Below, piece after piece: positions 53,869 through 63,940 of a DNA stretch of 64,000 bases. This DNA comes from Nitrospirales bacterium (GTDB lineage: Bacteria; Nitrospirota; Nitrospiria; Nitrospirales; UBA8639): assembly GCA_029261295.1 (NCBI GenBank), contig JAJDBP010000017.1:1-64000 (forward strand), written 5' to 3'. Every line of letters begins with the position of its first letter. Positions within the stretch are counted from its first letter, which is position 1. The notes under the pieces are model-generated. The model ran no database searches, was not told where the DNA came from, and saw only the letters and a program-made list of their open reading frames with translations. Made by a program: the position numbers and the translations under genes.

Positions 53869-54489
53869 TTACCCAGGCGATTCAGGGGATTCTTTTTTTT
53901 CAATAGGCAGTGGAAAGGAGATGATGATTCCACCCATGACATCCCCCAATTTAAAGTCTCGTTTTCCACTCAGAATATGTCCATTGTGACAATTCACACA
54001 GGCCTTAGAAACCGCTCGATCCGCATAAATGGCTTTAAAGAACCGTTTGTCCCCTCTGGTCATAATCCCGCTATAGACATCATCGGGATCCTCAGCCACT
54101 ACTTTCAACCCTGCTTCTTCAAAAACGTTACTCGGTCCATTCTCCTCAAAAATGGGCCACAGACTCGCCAGACGATACCTGAGTCCAGACCCACCCATTT
54201 CGACCACTCGTCCTGCCATTAAGAGCATCTGAGCCGGGAGGGGAAGGGCCTTTCGTTGTTTCCAGGATTCGGTCGCCACCACAACGCGCTCTTCCTGCAA
54301 TCGGTCTACGACATGAGTAGCATAAATAGCCCGGTCCGCTGAAATAACCGCATGAATATAATCGGCCACAACTTGAGGTGAGAAATCCACCTCCAACTCC
54401 TCTTCATCAGCAGCAAAGGCTATCCCTATACACCCAAAGAAAATTACGGCACTCAAGACTGACCTGACAATGACATGCTTTGTATTCAT
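53869..54489 (-). CDS. c-type haem protein with DUF3365 (Tll0287-like) domain
   Basis: The 206-residue protein has a signal peptide (about 1-26) and one c-type haem motif (CVNCH near residue 165), in the DUF3365/Tll0287-like layout: YIHAVISADRAIYATHVVD, then the CXXCH close to the C-terminus. Such proteins are periplasmic redox or haem-sensing domains. AGGAGGGG precedes the ATG at 54489. It is the last gene of the minus-strand redox unit and is followed by a strong terminator. Confidence 0.85.
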   Translation of the reverse strand: MNTKHVIVRSVLSAVIFFGCIGIAFAADEEELEVDFSPQVVADYIHAVISADRAIYATHVVDRLQEERVVVATESWKQRKALPLPAQMLLMAGRVVEMGGSGLRYRLASLWPIFEENGPSNVFEEAGLKVVAEDPDDVYSGIMTRGDKRFFKAIYADRAVSKACVNCHNGHILSGKRDFKLGDVMGGIIISFPLPIEKKESPESPG

Positions 54490-54629: not shown

Positions 54630-55550
54630 CTACGGAATTTGAAGCCTTTTCGAAGGGATAATTTCCTGCCCCTCTAACAGTAACTCCAACCCAAATCGAG
54701 GATTGTCCTCTATCTCGTGCGCGCTCCGTCGACCTTGGGGAGACTGAAAGGTAAACTCTGCCGACGTCGCCTGGTTGGGTTTCACCATGACCCTTTGTTC
54801 CACAAACTTCTTCACACCTGGATGCCAGGCTGCCAGCACATACTCCCCTGGCGGGATATCCGTGATCTGAAATTTTCCATCTTCTTTGGTTATGGAAAAA
54901 TAGGGATTCTCCGCCACTAGCCCCCAGGAAAACATATAGGGATGAAACCCACATTGCATCACAAACACATTCCGGCCCTTGCGCAAGTGAATGCGCTCCA
55001 CCATGGGTTTGCCCGCCATATATTTCTTCCCAAACATGCCCGCAACCTCCAGAAAGGGATTCATAGGCAACGGCCGATTAAAGAGAATCCGTGCGCCCCG
55101 TTCTCTGGCCGTTTCATAGCCTTGAATATCATGTTCCACGGGATCCATATTCACCACTTCAATTTTATCTTTGTCTTTGATGACATTCACAAACGGAATA
55201 AAATCACAGTCGATGGACTCAATCCGGACCTTCGGCAACGCAAACGATTTGCCTTTGGATACTCCCTTGAGCATCACCACCACATCCTTGAGGGTGTTAT
55301 TCGGCCCAATGATAAAATCCTCAACAAGCCGCCACCCCGTCCCAGTGGAAATGGTCCCACAAAACACTGGGTCTGGAATCGTCACAAGATTAAAAGCCAT
55401 GGGTCGAGGTTTTCCACCTTCAATAGTCACAATACCCTGAATGCTTCCCCCATTGGTTACCTTGATTTCGTCATAGGACCAAGCCGTTTGCGCGAAAAGA
55501 GCAGCCAGCCCAACCCCTAATATCCCTTTCCATAACATTCGGCCCTTCAT
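54630..55550 (-). CDS. Cupredoxin-like protein with carboxypeptidase-regulatory (TTR-like) domain
   Basis: From the ATG at 55550 (GAGGGAAGCA just upstream) the 306-residue protein has a signal peptide (about 1-25). Its central cupredoxin-like domain has the ligand set His (VEHDIQGYE), Cys-His (MQCGFHPYM) and Met, the spacing of blue-copper type-1 sites. The C-terminal part (about 220-290: GKFQITDIPPGEYVLAAWHPG) is a transthyretin-like carboxypeptidase-regulatory repeat. It lies between the giant oxidase and the haem protein. A blue-copper electron-transfer role is inferred. Confidence 0.75.
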   Translation of the reverse strand: MKGRMLWKGILGVGLAALFAQTAWSYDEIKVTNGGSIQGIVTIEGGKPRPMAFNLVTIPDPVFCGTISTGTGWRLVEDFIIGPNNTLKDVVVMLKGVSKGKSFALPKVRIESIDCDFIPFVNVIKDKDKIEVVNMDPVEHDIQGYETARERGARILFNRPLPMNPFLEVAGMFGKKYMAGKPMVERIHLRKGRNVFVMQCGFHPYMFSWGLVAENPYFSITKEDGKFQITDIPPGEYVLAAWHPGVKKFVEQRVMVKPNQATSAEFTFQSPQGRRSAHEIEDNPRFGLELLLEGQEIIPSKRLQIP

Positions 55551-55615
55551 TGCTTCCCTCCCCAACATGTATTGATATGAATCCTCAATAACATTCTATA
55601 GAAATATGCCCCCAT

Positions 55616-55678: not shown

Positions 55679-58600
55679 CTATTTTGCGACGGTAGGAATG
55701 ATCTTGGGCGTACCCAGATCATCAAGCTTGGCTTGCTTATTTGAAGGCGCGGAACCTGACAACGGCAAAATCCGTTGATCCGTGCTCGGCAATACCCGGA
55801 GATACCCCCATTGTCCCGATTGGGAATAAGGCAACCGTCCATTGCTCCACACATAGTCTCCAGCCATTGACCATGTTCCTCCCGCCGAAGGCAGGAACAC
55901 ATCTAAACCTTCTGAACCCGAGAATTCCACAGTGCTAATCATATCCGCACCCGGCAGGAATGGTTCGATCGGCCATTCATGTTTTTCCACCGTAAACATG
56001 CCATTCTGCTCGCTGCTGGCACCAAAGACATGAATACGGACTTTGTCACCGGCATGGGCCTCAATGGTCGGCGTGACGGGATCCTGAGGATTGTCCACTT
56101 CACAGGGTTGGAACATCCGACCCAACGAACAACCCGTTTCTTCCCGATGCAAGTAGGGTTCTGCTCGATAATTCACGCCGGTTAACCCTGCTACATTTTG
56201 GACATACGGCATAAAGCTGGTACCAATGATGTTGTCCTCGTCTTGGAAATACAAGGCCACATCACGATAGTTGGCTCGGCCTTCATTCCCTTGAATGGTC
56301 CGATCCACAATCACATCGACATTCCAACTATTTTTCAGAGACACATCTTCCCCCGTTTTCGGATCGCGGTAGGTTGATCCCTTAGGACCGATGATGACTC
56401 CACCGAATAATCCGTTGCGAGGATTCACAGACACATTTCCCCAATCCCATACCAACGTTTGCGTTTCACCATTAAAAGGATCCGCATAGTAGGTGTAGGT
56501 TTTGGATTTCCCTGGAGCCACCGTTTGCTCGCCCGCGTTATTCCCTAGATTCACGCCTTGCGAATCTTTGGGATCAAACGCCAACCCAAACGCTGAGAAC
56601 GACGCTTGTCCTTCTTTGAGTTTGTTTGTCAATTTGACTTTAAGACAATCTCCCACGTTGGCCCGAATGGTTAACGGCATGGGTTGCGCGTCACCCGAGA
56701 CTTTTTTCACTTCATCCTCGAGGACATAAATTTTGGCCTCTGGATTGCGCAATTCGATTGTCCGTTCAAAGTCTACTTCGATCGCGTCCGGAGCATTCGA
56801 ATTAAAGCTCATCCCCGGATGATCGATGGCCACGACATTAAAGGCTTTCACTGGGGCATCTTTTGGACACACCGGTAATCGTTCCGGAATCCCCTCTTTA
56901 CCATACGCCTTGTTTGGCAATGGTTGAAGATCACCCACTGGTTTATCGAGGACTCGAATAAGCCCCCAGGACCCTTCTGAGAACTTAGAGCTCCGGCCAT
57001 TAAAGAACATATAATCGCCGGCCTGGTGACGTGGGCCACCGGCCTCTGGAATGACTAAGTCATACCGCTCGGCAATCCCAATATGCAGCGAATGCTTACG
57101 ATTGGCTTCCTGCGCATATCGTTCAGACAAGAATGTATGGCCGGATATCGTAAACACATTACTCTCATTCATCGTCACGTCCAACAGTCGAAACACGATG
57201 GCATCGCCCAAGTAGGCCCGGATCATGGCCGTGCTGGGATCGCCATGCACCGCACTGCTGAAGATCTTCGATGGATCAGGATTATTCACCAATCGTTGCG
57301 CGAATGGTTCAGCTCGGAAATTCAACGCCCCACCTGTCGTATGGGTTCCCCCATTCAAGAACGGCATGGGCGTCATTTTTATTTGATCGTTTGGCGGCAT
57401 AATAAATGACACCGTCCGACCGGCTTCCAAGGCCACATCAATTGGTTGCCCCGGAGGGTTTCCTGCCGTGACGACATTCACGGTATGCGGCACTGTATCC
57501 ATGATATGCACCATCAATTCACGGAAGCTACCAGCCACATCATGGCCAACGCGCTCCACGGCATGAATATCGGCCACAGGACCGGTCCGAATCCGTTCAC
57601 CCGTTTTCGGATCATGCCATGTAGAGCCGAAGGGTTCGGCAATCATCGTTCCCACCGCACCATGTGGCCAGGTGGTGCCACCAAAGGCATGGTCATGCCA
57701 GAACACACTCCCGACATCTGCATCAACCCAGAACCGCTGCCGCACATATTCCACTGTCACAATCTCATCAACCGGATGCTTGAATTTCAGTGGATAAGCG
57801 AACGTCAGAGTCTTGCCATCAATCTTGACAATGCGTCGCACTTCTTTTTCTTTGACATTATCCGCACCGATCAAAATCGGAATACCCACATGATATTGTG
57901 CGGCATTGGTCACTTCGAGAATTTTCGATCCCGCTTTCGCTGCCTTGGAGACCTTGGCATTCATGGGAATCGGCAACCCTTTTTTGGTTGGCTTATCAAA
58001 TTGTGTAAACGGACGCATGGATTGCTCATAGGAGAATCCAGAAATCACTCCGTCTGACGCTTGATTATCAAATTGAAAGAAATGGAAATGTGTATTGATT
58101 TTTGACGATTGGAAATTGGTGATATCATCGTCCAACCACTCACTGGTCAACGTCCAATCAATACAATCATACACATTGGCTCGAACCACCAACGGGAACT
58201 TCTTATCGTTGTCAGCTCGTACCGCTTCTTCTTCTTCATGCACGACATACAGCAACCCATTAGGATCAACAATGGCAGGCTCACTACCCTGCGCCGCAGA
58301 TAATTCAATAGGTAACTTAATGAAATGCACATTGTAATCTTGAGAACCAGCACGATCTGGGCACAAACTCCAAGGGCCGTTTTCCCCTGGTTTCGCCGGT
58401 TCGACCGACCGAGTCCCATCTGGATTTAACCGGACCATTTCCAACCATGGAGCAGGATTATGATCATTAGAGAATGGAACCCGCTTTCCAAAATGCGGTG
58501 TCAACCATGGCCAGGCCACTTTTCCAGTTGAAGGTTCAAACCTAATGGCCCGACGCTCACCCGCCTTATATCCTTGCCACTCCGGACGGTATTTGGGATT

Positions 58601-60592
58601 TTCCCCAATCGTCGGTTCTTTCTCGCTCATAGCCTTTGCGCCGTCCCATACCCAATCAATCACGGTCGCATCATAGGCTTTCATCTGACCCAACTGATCA
58701 TCTTTATGACCAGGCTTACCTTGATTGCTCAGCTGCATTTCTACCCAGTCTTTGATATTAACGACGGCTGGCTCAACCTTCCAGTTACTCTTGCCATCGC
58801 CGACAATTTTGAATTGTTTGCCAAACCAATTCACGGTCTTGCCCACCAGCTTATCGGATGACACTGGTTTGTGAATGCGATCTAATCGATCCGGCAACTC
58901 ACGCAAGGGGGGCATCACATCATTTTGCATGCCCGGCACTTGCATCGTGTTATACACACGCCAGTACCCCCACATTCCTGCGACATAGTGATGCGCCACA
59001 TGGCAATGGAACAGAAAATCTCCAGCCAACCATTGGCACAGACCCGATCCGCATTCCGTTTCTAAATCTAATGCCTCAGATGGTCCGATGACTTCTACGT
59101 CAACGCGATCAGATTTTGTACGAATCACCGGATATTTCACGGGGCCTGTCTGACCGGTATTCCACACGGGCATTTGTGTGGCTCTTGGACTACGTTGCCA
59201 CCGAATGGCACCACCATGAGGATGATGGGAATGGAAGACTTCCGATCCGCCATGCACAATGCGGAACTTAGCAGGATCCCCTAAATAGCTGCGAGGAATC
59301 GTTGGAGCCGCATCCCCAAAGGTATAGGAACTATAGGCCATCGATTCATCTTCAAAACCAAAGTATTCATGTTGCACATGCATATTGTTGATGCCGAACG
59401 GCTCACTACGATAGTTGAGCGCCCGAGCACCTGGACGGTAGGCATCCGTTAATGGATCGCGTTGAGGCAAGAAATCCCCATGCTTGTTGACCGGACGGAA
59501 AGCTTCATCCCCAACTTCATGATAGATGAGGACAAATTCACGAAAATCTGGACCATCCCCATTATCAATCATGACTTGCCAACCACTGCTAGCTTCTGTC
59601 GCGGCTCCGGTTCCTAAAGGTTCATAGTAATTCGATCCCCGGGGTTCCACCACGAACACCCCAAACATCCCCATGACCGTTAATTCCCGATCATTGCTAA
59701 ATGTATGAAATTGGCGACCACCTTCCTGCGTATCAGGATGGATATACCATTCCATTTTAATGACAGGAGATCCGGCAGGTGCCTCCTCATCATCATCACT
59801 GACACCTACAGCGATTGAATCGGGATTGGTGGTCGTTGCGGGTTGGCCCGTCTTGCTCATCACCATATCCGAGCCATTGATATGTAAACTCACTTCTTCT
59901 CCAAACTCTAATTTGTTGCGAAGTGTAATTTTGACGCAATCCCCTTGGTTGCCTCGAATGACCAACGGTTGAATCCATTGATCTTGGATGCCATTTTTCA
60001 CACCGCCCGGGTCGTTGTGCCCTTCCGTTTCACGAGCAGCCGCATTTTTGGCTTCTTCCGCACGAACTTTGTCCATATTTTCTGTCAAGGCATACATATA
60101 CCCTGGATAATAATCCAGCCATTGATTCAAGGTAATTTCAACATTGACGGCCGATATATCATAATTCCGCACTGGGGCCGTCTTAGGACACAAACCCCCT
60201 TTCATCGAAACGGGTTCCACATTAGAATTACTTGCCAGCAAGCCATTCTCTGGCCCACCTCCATATTGATGAATCATCGACATCGAATTGAACGCACCAG
60301 TGTCGGCACCCTTGTGGTCCATGTCCTTCTGCATTTGCTGCATCATCCGTTGGTGTTGCAGCTCAACGAGTGCAGCGCGCTCAGCGCGACCTTCCATGGC
60401 ATCTTCTACAATGGTTTGTCCTTTGAGTTCTTCAGCCCATCCTGGGGATTTGGCAGTCATCCCAACTGGATGCAGATGTTGAGAGGAAGCATCTTCAGCG
60501 CTAACAAATGATGGGATCCCACATAAAGTCGCTCCCCCAAATAGCGCTAAGAATGCCGAAACCGTGAATAAAGTCCGTTTACGGTGATACAT
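55679..60592 (-). CDS. Giant six-domain multicopper oxidase
   Basis: From the ATG at about 60592 (AGGAGG just upstream) the protein has about 1637 residues and a Sec signal (about 5-31). Numbering here is of the mature-length product plus 15. Three large units of cupredoxin pairs recur, marked by RALNYRSEPF (about 405), GALNFRAEPF (about 1104) and GVNYRAEPY (about 1487), and by GDFLFHCHVAHHYVAGM, GDYMFFNGRS and GDYVWSNGRLPY. Copper-ligand motifs with full histidines are FHSHHPHGG (about 468) and HCHVAHHYVAGM (about 544, type-1 Cys plus Met) in unit 1, and NTHFHFFQFD (about 848) and FWHDHAFGG (about 979) in unit 2. Unit 3 lacks them. One complete trinuclear and type-1 site could thus form across units 1 and 2. 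The size recalls MnxG-type manganese oxidases and ceruloplasmin. The substrate is unknown. Confidence 0.9.
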   Translation of the reverse strand: MYHRKRTLFTVSAFLALFGGATLCGIPSFVSAEDASSQHLHPVGMTAKSPGWAEELKGQTIVEDAMEGRAERAALVELQHQRMMQQMQKDMDHKGADTGAFNSMSMIHQYGGGPENGLLASNSNVEPVSMKGGLCPKTAPVRNYDISAVNVEITLNQWLDYYPGYMYALTENMDKVRAEEAKNAAARETEGHNDPGGVKNGIQDQWIQPLVIRGNQGDCVKITLRNKLEFGEEVSLHINGSDMVMSKTGQPATTTNPDSIAVGVSDDDEEAPAGSPVIKMEWYIHPDTQEGGRQFHTFSNDRELTVMGMFGVFVVEPRGSNYYEPLGTGAATEASSGWQVMIDNGDGPDFREFVLIYHEVGDEAFRPVNKHGDFLPQRDPLTDAYRPGARALNYRSEPFGINNMHVQHEYFGFEDESMAYSSYTFGDAAPTIPRSYLGDPAKFRIVHGGSEVFHSHHPHGGAIRWQRSPRATQMPVWNTGQTGPVKYPVIRTKSDRVDVEVIGPSEALDLETECGSGLCQWLAGDFLFHCHVAHHYVAGMWGYWRVYNTMQVPGMQNDVMPPLRELPDRLDRIHKPVSSDKLVGKTVNWFGKQFKIVGDGKSNWKVEPAVVNIKDWVEMQLSNQGKPGHKDDQLGQMKAYDATVIDWVWDGAKAMSEKEPTIGENPKYRPEWQGYKAGERRAIRFEPSTGKVAWPWLTPHFGKRVPFSNDHNPAPWLEMVRLNPDGTRSVEPAKPGENGPWSLCPDRAGSQDYNVHFIKLPIELSAAQGSEPAIVDPNGLLYVVHEEEEAVRADNDKKFPLVVRANVYDCIDWTLTSEWLDDDITNFQSSKINTHFHFFQFDNQASDGVISGFSYEQSMRPFTQFDKPTKKGLPIPMNAKVSKAAKAGSKILEVTNAAQYHVGIPILIGADNVKEKEVRRIVKIDGKTLTFAYPLKFKHPVDEIVTVEYVRQRFWVDADVGSVFWHDHAFGGTTWPHGAVGTMIAEPFGSTWHDPKTGERIRTGPVADIHAVERVGHDVAGSFRELMVHIMDTVPHTVNVVTAGNPPGQPIDVALEAGRTVSFIMPPNDQIKMTPMPFLNGGTHTTGGALNFRAEPFAQRLVNNPDPSKIFSSAVHGDPSTAMIRAYLGDAIVFRLLDVTMNESNVFTISGHTFLSERYAQEANRKHSLHIGIAERYDLVIPEAGGPRHQAGDYMFFNGRSSKFSEGSWGLIRVLDKPVGDLQPLPNKAYGKEGIPERLPVCPKDAPVKAFNVVAIDHPGMSFNSNAPDAIEVDFERTIELRNPEAKIYVLEDEVKKVSGDAQPMPLTIRANVGDCLKVKLTNKLKEGQASFSAFGLAFDPKDSQGVNLGNNAGEQTVAPGKSKTYTYYADPFNGETQTLVWDWGNVSVNPRNGLFGGVIIGPKGSTYRDPKTGEDVSLKNSWNVDVIVDRTIQGNEGRANYRDVALYFQDEDNIIGTSFMPYVQNVAGLTGVNYRAEPYLHREETGCSLGRMFQPCEVDNPQDPVTPTIEAHAGDKVRIHVFGASSEQNGMFTVEKHEWPIEPFLPGADMISTVEFSGSEGLDVFLPSAGGTWSMAGDYVWSNGRLPYSQSGQWGYLRVLPSTDQRILPLSGSAPSNKQAKLDDLGTPKIIPTVAK

Positions 60593-60708
60593 GCGCCGGC
60601 CTCCTTTACATAAGGCGGTTGGTGAATAAAAAATCAAAATTGGATACTGCTATCTGTTGGCCACATATTCTCTGTCCTGATTCATCACGTATTTCCATCA
60701 AGATTTAG

Positions 60709-61103: not shown

Positions 61104-61862
61104 TCAGAAAGCGATGCCGAAATAAGCGCCCGCTGTCCCAAAATTATTGGTAGTATCAGTTTGCCCGGTCGCTAAATGAAAACGCCCATCAACACCCAAA
61201 TGTAGAGCTTTCCACACGCGGACTTGTACTCCAACGGCAAATTGCACCCCAATATCCAACACTGTCGTATCATTAGAGGGAGGACTGATGACATGGAAAT
61301 CTAAGCCAGCCGGGATAATCCATGGTCGAAACCTGCTTCCTTCCATGAACATAATTTTTGGCGCGACATTGACGGTAAGCATGGTAATTTGAACTTTCTC
61401 TTTCCTGACCGAACAGGTAGGAACCGCAGCAGCCCCACAAGTAGACGGCACAGCCTGTGTGACCCTCTTAGAATCAAATCGTTTGAATTCCACGCCAATT
61501 TCCCCTAACACCCACGTGCCTGGGAACAAATCCCAAATATCCCGAGTGAGGACCAAATCCAGTCCAGCACCAACGTAATATCCAGAATCCCCACTATTGT
61601 TTCCCTGAAAGCCAAACACATCAGTAAAGACTTCATTTGATCGATCATTCGTCGCCCAAGCTCCCCCGCCACGGAAAAACACCATATTCCCGGTTTCTTG
61701 CTCCGCCCCGGGTGAGGTAGAGAGTGTTTTTTGTTCTAATCGTTCTAACCGTTCTTCAACTGTCGCAGCGTGAACTACGCTTATGCCACAAAGAACAAAC
61801 AACAAAGCACTGCCAACCAACAAGCCATAACCTTCGCACCTAAATTTCCGATGTCGAGTCAT
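61104..61862 (-). CDS. Outer-membrane beta-barrel protein
   Basis: The 252-residue protein has a signal peptide (about 1-31), a short coiled-coil (VEERLERLEQKTL) and then alternating amphipathic strands (GYYVGAGLDLVL, LHLGVDGRFHL), ending in GAYFGIAF with the C-terminal Phe typical of outer-membrane barrels. The barrel is about 8-10 strands. It is the first gene of the unit preceding the giant oxidase. Substrate unknown. Confidence 0.75.
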   Translation of the reverse strand: MTRHRKFRCEGYGLLVGSALLFVLCGISVVHAATVEERLERLEQKTLSTSPGAEQETGNMVFFRGGGAWATNDRSNEVFTDVFGFQGNNSGDSGYYVGAGLDLVLTRDIWDLFPGTWVLGEIGVEFKRFDSKRVTQAVPSTCGAAAVPTCSVRKEKVQITMLTVNVAPKIMFMEGSRFRPWIIPAGLDFHVISPPSNDTTVLDIGVQFAVGVQVRVWKALHLGVDGRFHLATGQTDTTNNFGTAGAYFGIAF

Positions 61863-62515: not shown

Positions 62516-63940
62516 TTATGAAATGTTGTTATCTCGCAATTTATTGTAAAGGCTTGAACGACTAATTTTTAGAAGCCTCGCCGCACGAGTTTTATCTCCC
62601 TTGGCATTAAGTAGAGCTTGGAGAATCTGGCTTCGCTCAGCTTCCTGCCGTGCAACTTTCCCAATTCTATTCAAATCATTTTTGAAAGGCTGAGTGCTCT
62701 GCCCATGAAATAAATCCCCAGGTTGAAGGATAGAATGTGGGCAAGTCACGACACCTCGTTCAATGACATTTTCCAGTTCGCGAACATTCCCGGGCCAATG
62801 ATGTTGAACGAGCGCCAACTGAGCATTTGGACTCACACTGATTGGAGCACGGCCATTTTTTTGTGCTGCCTCTCGCAAGAAATACTCAACCAATAATGGA
62901 ATATCTTTTTTGCGTTCTCGTAGGGAAGGGACCGTTAAAGGTAGGACAGCCAGCCGATAATACAAATCAGCCCGAAATGTTTTGGCCTTGACTAATCCCT
63001 CAAGAGGTTTATTCCCAGCGGAAAGCACTCGCACATTCACCTTAATAGACTGATTACTCCCGACAGGTTTAATTTCTCCTTCTTGTAATACCCGAAGCAG
63101 TCGGGCTTGAAACGCGTGTGTGGTATCGGCAATTTCATCTAAAAAAATTGTTCCTCCTTCAGCTTCCTCGAAAAGCCCCTTTCTGTCAGATACCGCTCCC
63201 GTAAACGCCCCACGTTTATGGCCAAAGAGTTCACTTTCCAACAAGGTTTCGGGCAAAGCACTGCATTCCACGACAACAAAAGGCTGCGTCCGTCGACGGC
63301 TCAACGCATGAATAGTTTTCGCCACAAGTTCCTTGCCGGTCCCACTTTCGCCCTGAATCAATACGGTGGCCTCACTCGCAGCCACCAATTGAATCATTTC
63401 TACTAAAGATTGGATGGGTTCACTGTCACCAATAATTGATCGAATTGGCCCCTTTGCATCTGATGACGCTTCATGTCTGGAATCCAGGCGTCCTTCATTT
63501 TTCGTCTCTGACTGAGGGGTGACAAGACTTTCAGTACCCCGAACACCCATCATGACTGCTAAATGCGTCTGCCCCGCTTCACTTTGTAACGGCACAGCGT
63601 TAGGCAGGGGACACCTTGAAGAGAACTCAATACTCAAAGGAGACGCAGGCACGACTCCAGAATGTTGGTTTCTGTCCGGAAATAGGCTGGTGGCAGGACA
63701 AGACTCACAGGGAGATACTTGAGAATTTATGGAATGAGAACCGTTTGTTTTTGATCTGAGAATTAAGGGACAGTCCTTCGAAATTTTTTCGGAGGCAGGA
63801 TTGGCATACACCATTTCCATTTTTGGATTAAAAATGACAATAGGCTCTTCTAAATGATGCGCTAATAATTTTAAACCCTCAATGCGGGCACAAACATGTT
63901 CAGGAAGATCAGCTCCCGTTGGCGAATACGATCCGGCCAT
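62516..63940 (-). CDS. Sigma-54-dependent transcriptional activator
   Basis: The 474-residue protein has a PAS-like N-terminal region (about 15-110: EEPIVIFNPKMEMVYANPAS) with a Cys pair (PCESCP). It then has a sigma-54 AAA+ domain with Walker A GESGTGKE, GAFTGA loop (GHKRGAFTGA) and DEIADTTHAFQ, and a C-terminal Fis-type HTH (GDKTRAARLLKISRSSLYNK). The GAFTGA loop means it can open sigma-54 promoters. AGGAGTC precedes the ATG at 63940. It lies upstream of the outer-membrane/oxidase unit and may control it. Confidence 0.93.
   Translation of the reverse strand: MAGSYSPTGADLPEHVCARIEGLKLLAHHLEEPIVIFNPKMEMVYANPASEKISKDCPLILRSKTNGSHSINSQVSPCESCPATSLFPDRNQHSGVVPASPLSIEFSSRCPLPNAVPLQSEAGQTHLAVMMGVRGTESLVTPQSETKNEGRLDSRHEASSDAKGPIRSIIGDSEPIQSLVEMIQLVAASEATVLIQGESGTGKELVAKTIHALSRRRTQPFVVVECSALPETLLESELFGHKRGAFTGAVSDRKGLFEEAEGGTIFLDEIADTTHAFQARLLRVLQEGEIKPVGSNQSIKVNVRVLSAGNKPLEGLVKAKTFRADLYYRLAVLPLTVPSLRERKKDIPLLVEYFLREAAQKNGRAPISVSPNAQLALVQHHWPGNVRELENVIERGVVTCPHSILQPGDLFHGQSTQPFKNDLNRIGKVARQEAERSQILQALLNAKGDKTRAARLLKISRSSLYNKLRDNNIS

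Follow-up and report, generated by a model that had tools for sequence, protein, structure and literature searches.

The window, that is, the whole stretch of 64,000 nucleotides analysed here, encodes a real and complete six-domain multicopper oxidase (MCO) of a known kind. It is considered likely that this protein is an exported enzyme in which three cupredoxin pairs are joined in one chain with a single working copper site; this grading extends to the mechanism set out below and excludes the nature of the reductant. What is added here is the class-wide distribution of the family, the conservation of its ligands and the frequency of its pairing with a cupredoxin. The features are collected in Table 1.

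Table 1. Features of the six-domain MCO and its neighbours in the window
Feature	Position	Strand	Basis
Six-domain MCO, MnxG-like	55679..60592	-	1637 aa ORF; NF041487 121 bits; PDB 9bxa 5.8e-69, profile 1.3e-129
Predicted N-terminal signal peptide, Sec-like, ~residues 1-32	60497..60592	-	read by eye: basic N-terminus, then a hydrophobic segment and a VSA-ED junction
Unit 1 (domains 1 and 2), ~residues 130-570	58883..60205	-	profile alignment with the other two units
Unit 2 (domains 3 and 4), ~residues 738-1235	56888..58381	-	profile alignment
Unit 3 (domains 5 and 6), ~residues 1236-1612, without complete copper site	55757..56887	-	profile alignment; degenerate motifs
Domain 2, H454 (type 1 ligand) with H457 and H459 (trinuclear ligands)	59216..59233	-	invariant 69/69
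Domain 2, HCH H529-C530-H531; type 1 ligands C530, H535, M540	58973..59008	-	invariant 69/69; aligns with MnxG HCH
Domain 3, first HxH, H835 and H837	58082..58090	-	invariant 69/69; aligns with MnxG HIH
Domain 3, second HxH, H966 and H968	57689..57697	-	invariant 69/69; aligns with MnxG HDH
Domain 4, lost HCH/type 1 site	56951..57025	-	alignment of relatives
Domain 6, lost HCH/type 1 site	55793..55864	-	alignment of relatives
Cupredoxin, amicyanin-type loop (H, C-x2-H-x2-M), with C-terminal carboxypeptidase-regulatory-like domain	54630..55568	-	Pfam
Tll0287-like protein with a single CxxCH c-haem motif; third in the run of genes	53869..54489	-	Pfam PF11845 E 4.7e-14; motif read directly
Sigma-54-dependent (NtrC-type) regulator, upstream of the MCO	62516..63940	-	Pfam

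Domain organization

Counted from the ATG, the open reading frame comprises 1637 amino acids; a start at the in-frame TTG at 60637 would lengthen it by 15. The Sec-like signal peptide, read by eye, indicates that the enzyme is probably exported. The initial annotation had described three large similar units, and these were found to be homologous, with shuffle z-scores of 9, 22 and 31 and profile-profile E-values of 4e-29 to 5e-35. Each unit opens with a similar CP motif and contains a cysteine pair (C135/C219, C744/C810 and C1242/C1316) that is invariant in the alignment of 69 sequences.

Copper ligands

The ligands of MCOs are usually spaced as HxxHxH, HCHxxxHxxxxM and two HxH pairs. In the window protein, unit 1 carries H454-S-H-H457-P-H459 and HCHVAHHYVAGM at 529-540, while H835-F-H837 and H966-D-H968 are found in unit 2, at the very places where HxH blocks had been claimed. 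Alignment of 69 full-length MCO sequences, all from the window's class, showed that twelve ligand positions (H454, H457, H459, H529, C530, H531, H535, M540, H835, H837, H966 and H968) are invariant in 69/69. As these positions and the cysteine pairs are conserved throughout, the motif pattern is not a matter of chance. We take H454, C530, H535 and M540 to be the four ligands of one type 1 copper and the remaining eight to form one trinuclear centre. Judged from its sequence, the protein has one complete MCO active site, divided between domain 2 (unit 1) and domain 3 (unit 2).

Unit 2 is itself half degenerate, as its second domain (GDYMFFNGRSSKFSEGSWG) is without the HCH/type 1 site, and the same holds for unit 3 (GDYVWSNGRLPYSQSGQWG). 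The ligand equivalents of domains 4 and 6 are lost in the common sequence variants of the relatives. The proposal of one site spread over two units with a third unit degenerate was therefore borne out, the degenerate motifs of unit 3 being seen in the alignment of relatives, with the refinement that the second domain of unit 2 is degenerate too. An AlphaFold model of residues 127-1226 reached a pLDDT of 58.9, and domain 2 (with the HCH motif) and much of domain 4 were unfolded in it. The model is therefore uninformative on the copper geometry, and we infer that the HxH motifs of domains 2 and 3 come together in one trinuclear centre.

A separate observation concerns domain 1. Of the 69 sequences, 22 have both HxH pairs (HIH and HSH) there, and these pairs may form a second metal site; the 22 lie among L063-L091, and none of them comes from the window's own order. 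In the window protein, only H237 and H296 are present at the corresponding residues 237-239 (59876-59884) and 296-298 (59699-59707, both on the minus strand). Such pairs make up half of a ceruloplasmin-type site, the domain 6 half of which is lost.

Relationship to MnxG and other multicopper oxidases

In bacterial six-domain MCOs such as MnxG, domains 2 and 3 hold the trinuclear site between them and type 1 copper is confined to domain 2; proteins were assigned to this group when they exceeded 800 residues and had significant similarity to MnxG (Vasin et al. 2013, PMC3600357). The window protein, with its 1637 amino acids and an E-value of 5.8e-69 to the structure 9bxa, corresponds to this description, and by sequence its trinuclear ligands fall in domains 2 and 3 and its type 1 ligands only in domain 2. 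The layout had been regarded as unusual, which does not hold, since it was already published for this group (PMC3600357) and the same motif order (HLHxHQW, HCHxxPHxxxGM, HxH, HDH) is shared by NF041487 and by MnxG-type oxidases of related genomes (L033-L042).

The suggested resemblance to MnxG was supported. The structure 9bxa, the Mnx H340A complex containing MnxG of Bacillus sp. PL-12, was nearest by sequence (phmmer, 5.8e-69; profile search, 1.3e-129), with similarity running along the chain, and it was also nearest by fold. The two proteins have in common the six domains, the type 1 site and HCH motif in domain 2 and the HxH pairs in domain 3. With the weak model of the window protein, MnxG was the top Foldseek match (9e-26), and VIA-align gave Z 15.6 over 599 aligned residues for 9bxa, followed by factor VIII (12.0) and ceruloplasmin (about 11); given the model underneath, this fold comparison is supporting evidence only. 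The proteins differ in that identity is 24% over the 599 structurally aligned residues and the window protein is longer by about 410 amino acids. The window protein also has a cupredoxin neighbour. In Bacillus, mnxE and mnxF stand beside mnxG; three neighbours of the window gene, short ORFs not included, matched no MnxE or MnxF chain when compared with PDB sequences.

Against the curated MnxG family NF041487, the window protein scored 121.3 bits, compared with a cut-off of 3100. In a FastTree phylogeny, for which the program issued a warning on long branches, the window family fell into a single clade that excluded three MnxG-type proteins of the same order, and the branches leading to either side were very long. 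By the NF041487 test, the window protein thus falls outside the MnxG family, although its anatomy is MnxG-like. Some related genomes additionally encode larger MnxG-type oxidases (L033-L042), separate from the window family, which reach up to about 1700 bits to NF041487 and so still fall below the cut-off.

The likeness to ceruloplasmin that had also been suggested holds for the six domains; otherwise ceruloplasmin is a looser analogue, as its trinuclear site lies elsewhere, between domains 1 and 6, and it has three type 1 sites. A site of the ceruloplasmin/hephaestin kind was not found, the domain 6 HCH being lost in the relatives examined and domain 1 of the window protein being without complete HxH pairs. 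The three-domain laccase/CueO type, which has all four HxH motifs within a single chain some 500 residues long, does not apply either, since the motifs of the window protein extend over residues 454-968 of 1637 and over two of the three units. CotA has three domains and is a distant MCO. MopA belongs to the haem peroxidases and not to the MCOs (PMC6247904).

Host and distribution

The window genome carries an NxrA on contig C13 that is 87% identical to that of a relative, and Nitrospira moscoviensis and Ca. Nitrospira defluvii are among its named relatives. This places the host with the nitrite oxidisers of the Nitrospirales. A second MCO copy, 77-78% identical to the window copy on contig C9, was found on contig C32, and complete genomes contain about three or four copies (G010, G019, G090 and G092). 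In one single-contig genome, a copy beside nxrA is present in two reading frames of 1123 and 611 amino acids (L049, G019:C1 about 330000).

The NF041487 model matched in 264/270 genomes in a sample of the class. In an even draw from the window's phylum alone, the window protein had a match, among the matches listed, in 163/164 genomes of the class versus 3/232 outside it, those three being weak. On these sequence matches, the family appears nearly universal in the class and practically absent from the other classes of the phylum.

The genome of Nitrospina gracilis was reported to encode a periplasmic MCO that resembles the Mn oxidase of Bacillus, is highly conserved in Ca. N. defluvii and is encoded, together with cupredoxins, in the NXR cluster; in a brief treatment, protection from oxygen radicals was proposed as its role (PMC3578206). 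Similarity to the Bacillus enzyme, nitrite-oxidising hosts and the nearby NXR and cupredoxin genes are shared with the window family, and one copy from Ca. N. defluvii (L163) shares 69% identity with the window protein; the published MCO and the window protein are very probably of the same family. Two 'novel MCOs' were described in all analysed Ca. Manganitrophaceae (PMC9040806), and we infer from the class-wide distribution that these also belong to it.

An accessory role in nitrite oxidation, in which the MCO would exchange electrons with the nitrite oxidoreductase chain, draws support from several genomes in which one copy and its cupredoxin adjoin nxrAB, as noted for Nitrospina and Ca. N. 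defluvii (PMC3578206). The MCO, however, occurs in 264/270 genomes of the class, other orders included, whereas close NxrA sequences were found in 180/270 genomes of the class, all within the window's own order, and in the window genome the MCO copies (C9 and C32) and NxrA (C13) lie on different contigs. Hence, the oxidase belongs to the class and not to nitrite oxidation as such, and this distribution leaves the accessory role improbable.

Gene neighbourhood and the cupredoxin partner

The gene directly after the MCO encodes a cupredoxin whose type 1 ligands (H140, C200, H203 and M206 in the aligned fragment) are invariant in 55/55 sequences. Its AF2 model has a pLDDT of 79.6, the nearest folds being auracyanin, plastocyanin and amicyanin. 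Among the 71 named loci with enough downstream sequence, a strict rule places a cupredoxin directly after the MCO in 54, a count that rises to about 60 when six near misses, which overlap the limits of the rule or sit further on, are added by reading; it is missing nearby in about 11. The cupredoxin is a probable partner of the MCO, though neighbouring genes are no proof of electron transfer.

The Tll0287-like gene is also present at two MCO loci of the same genus, and sigma-54 regulators adjoin many other copies, the neighbours of which include nxrA, nxrB and genes for HEAT-repeat and DUF255 proteins. Upstream of the MCO, a 252-residue protein (61104-61862, minus strand) with a signal-peptide-like start and relatives beside copies elsewhere belongs to no Pfam family and is possibly an outer-membrane barrel.

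The window further contains, at 996-2858 on the plus strand, an ordinary three-domain MCO with all three Cu-oxidase Pfam domains. This protein is the more usual candidate for a Cu(I) oxidase conferring copper tolerance, a function that could otherwise be considered for the six-domain MCO on account of its signal peptide and its Met/His-rich N-terminal stretch. No CueO or PcoA-type chain was found among the sequence matches of the six-domain MCO, and Cu(I) oxidation is regarded as quite unlikely for it.

Proposed mechanism and reductant

The reductant would deliver electrons singly to the type 1 copper of domain 2, from which the His-Cys-His motif would carry them to a trinuclear copper centre where domains 2 and 3 meet. 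There O2 would be reduced to water; the remaining domains would be structural. The enzyme part of this scheme, from type 1 copper through the trinuclear centre to O2, is based on the conserved ligands together with well-established MCO chemistry.

The neighbouring cupredoxin is favoured as the reductant, since a dedicated blue-copper protein with invariant ligands stands beside most copies. The MCO would then be a cupredoxin-fed periplasmic O2 reductase, an assignment that is held tentatively and at somewhat less than even confidence. Its main rival is direct periplasmic oxidation of Mn(II), or Fe(II), with O2 in the manner of MnxG, both metals having been suggested in the initial annotation. 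The Mn(III) so formed may scavenge superoxide, a role put forward for Nitrospina and Ca. N. defluvii. In favour of this reading, the closest relative with a solved structure is a manganese oxidase, a defence against oxygen radicals has been published for what is probably the window family (PMC3578206), and the 'novel MCOs' were present in all analysed Ca. Manganitrophaceae (PMC9040806). Metal oxidation is nevertheless held to be somewhat less likely than the cupredoxin route, as the family score is far below the MnxG cut-off, a very long branch parts the window family from the MnxG-type oxidases of related genomes, and the family extends through almost the whole class and is not confined to Mn oxidisers.

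Significance

The six-domain architecture was already known, and such an MCO had been noted in Nitrospina and Nitrospira. Nitrospira-type bacteria are among the main nitrite oxidisers, and some of them are without the usual enzymes against oxygen radicals (PMC8115632). A large copper oxidase retained almost throughout the class, and frequently as several copies in one genome, is likely to be important for the handling of oxygen or metals. A bolder possibility, and a doubtful one at present, is that the MnxG-like oxidase, fed by a dedicated blue-copper protein and not by metal ions, constitutes a class-defining periplasmic O2-reducing system that has been multiplied in the nitrite oxidisers. 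Because the oxidase is so strictly tied to the class and has a cupredoxin beside it, the hypothesis is a concrete and testable one.
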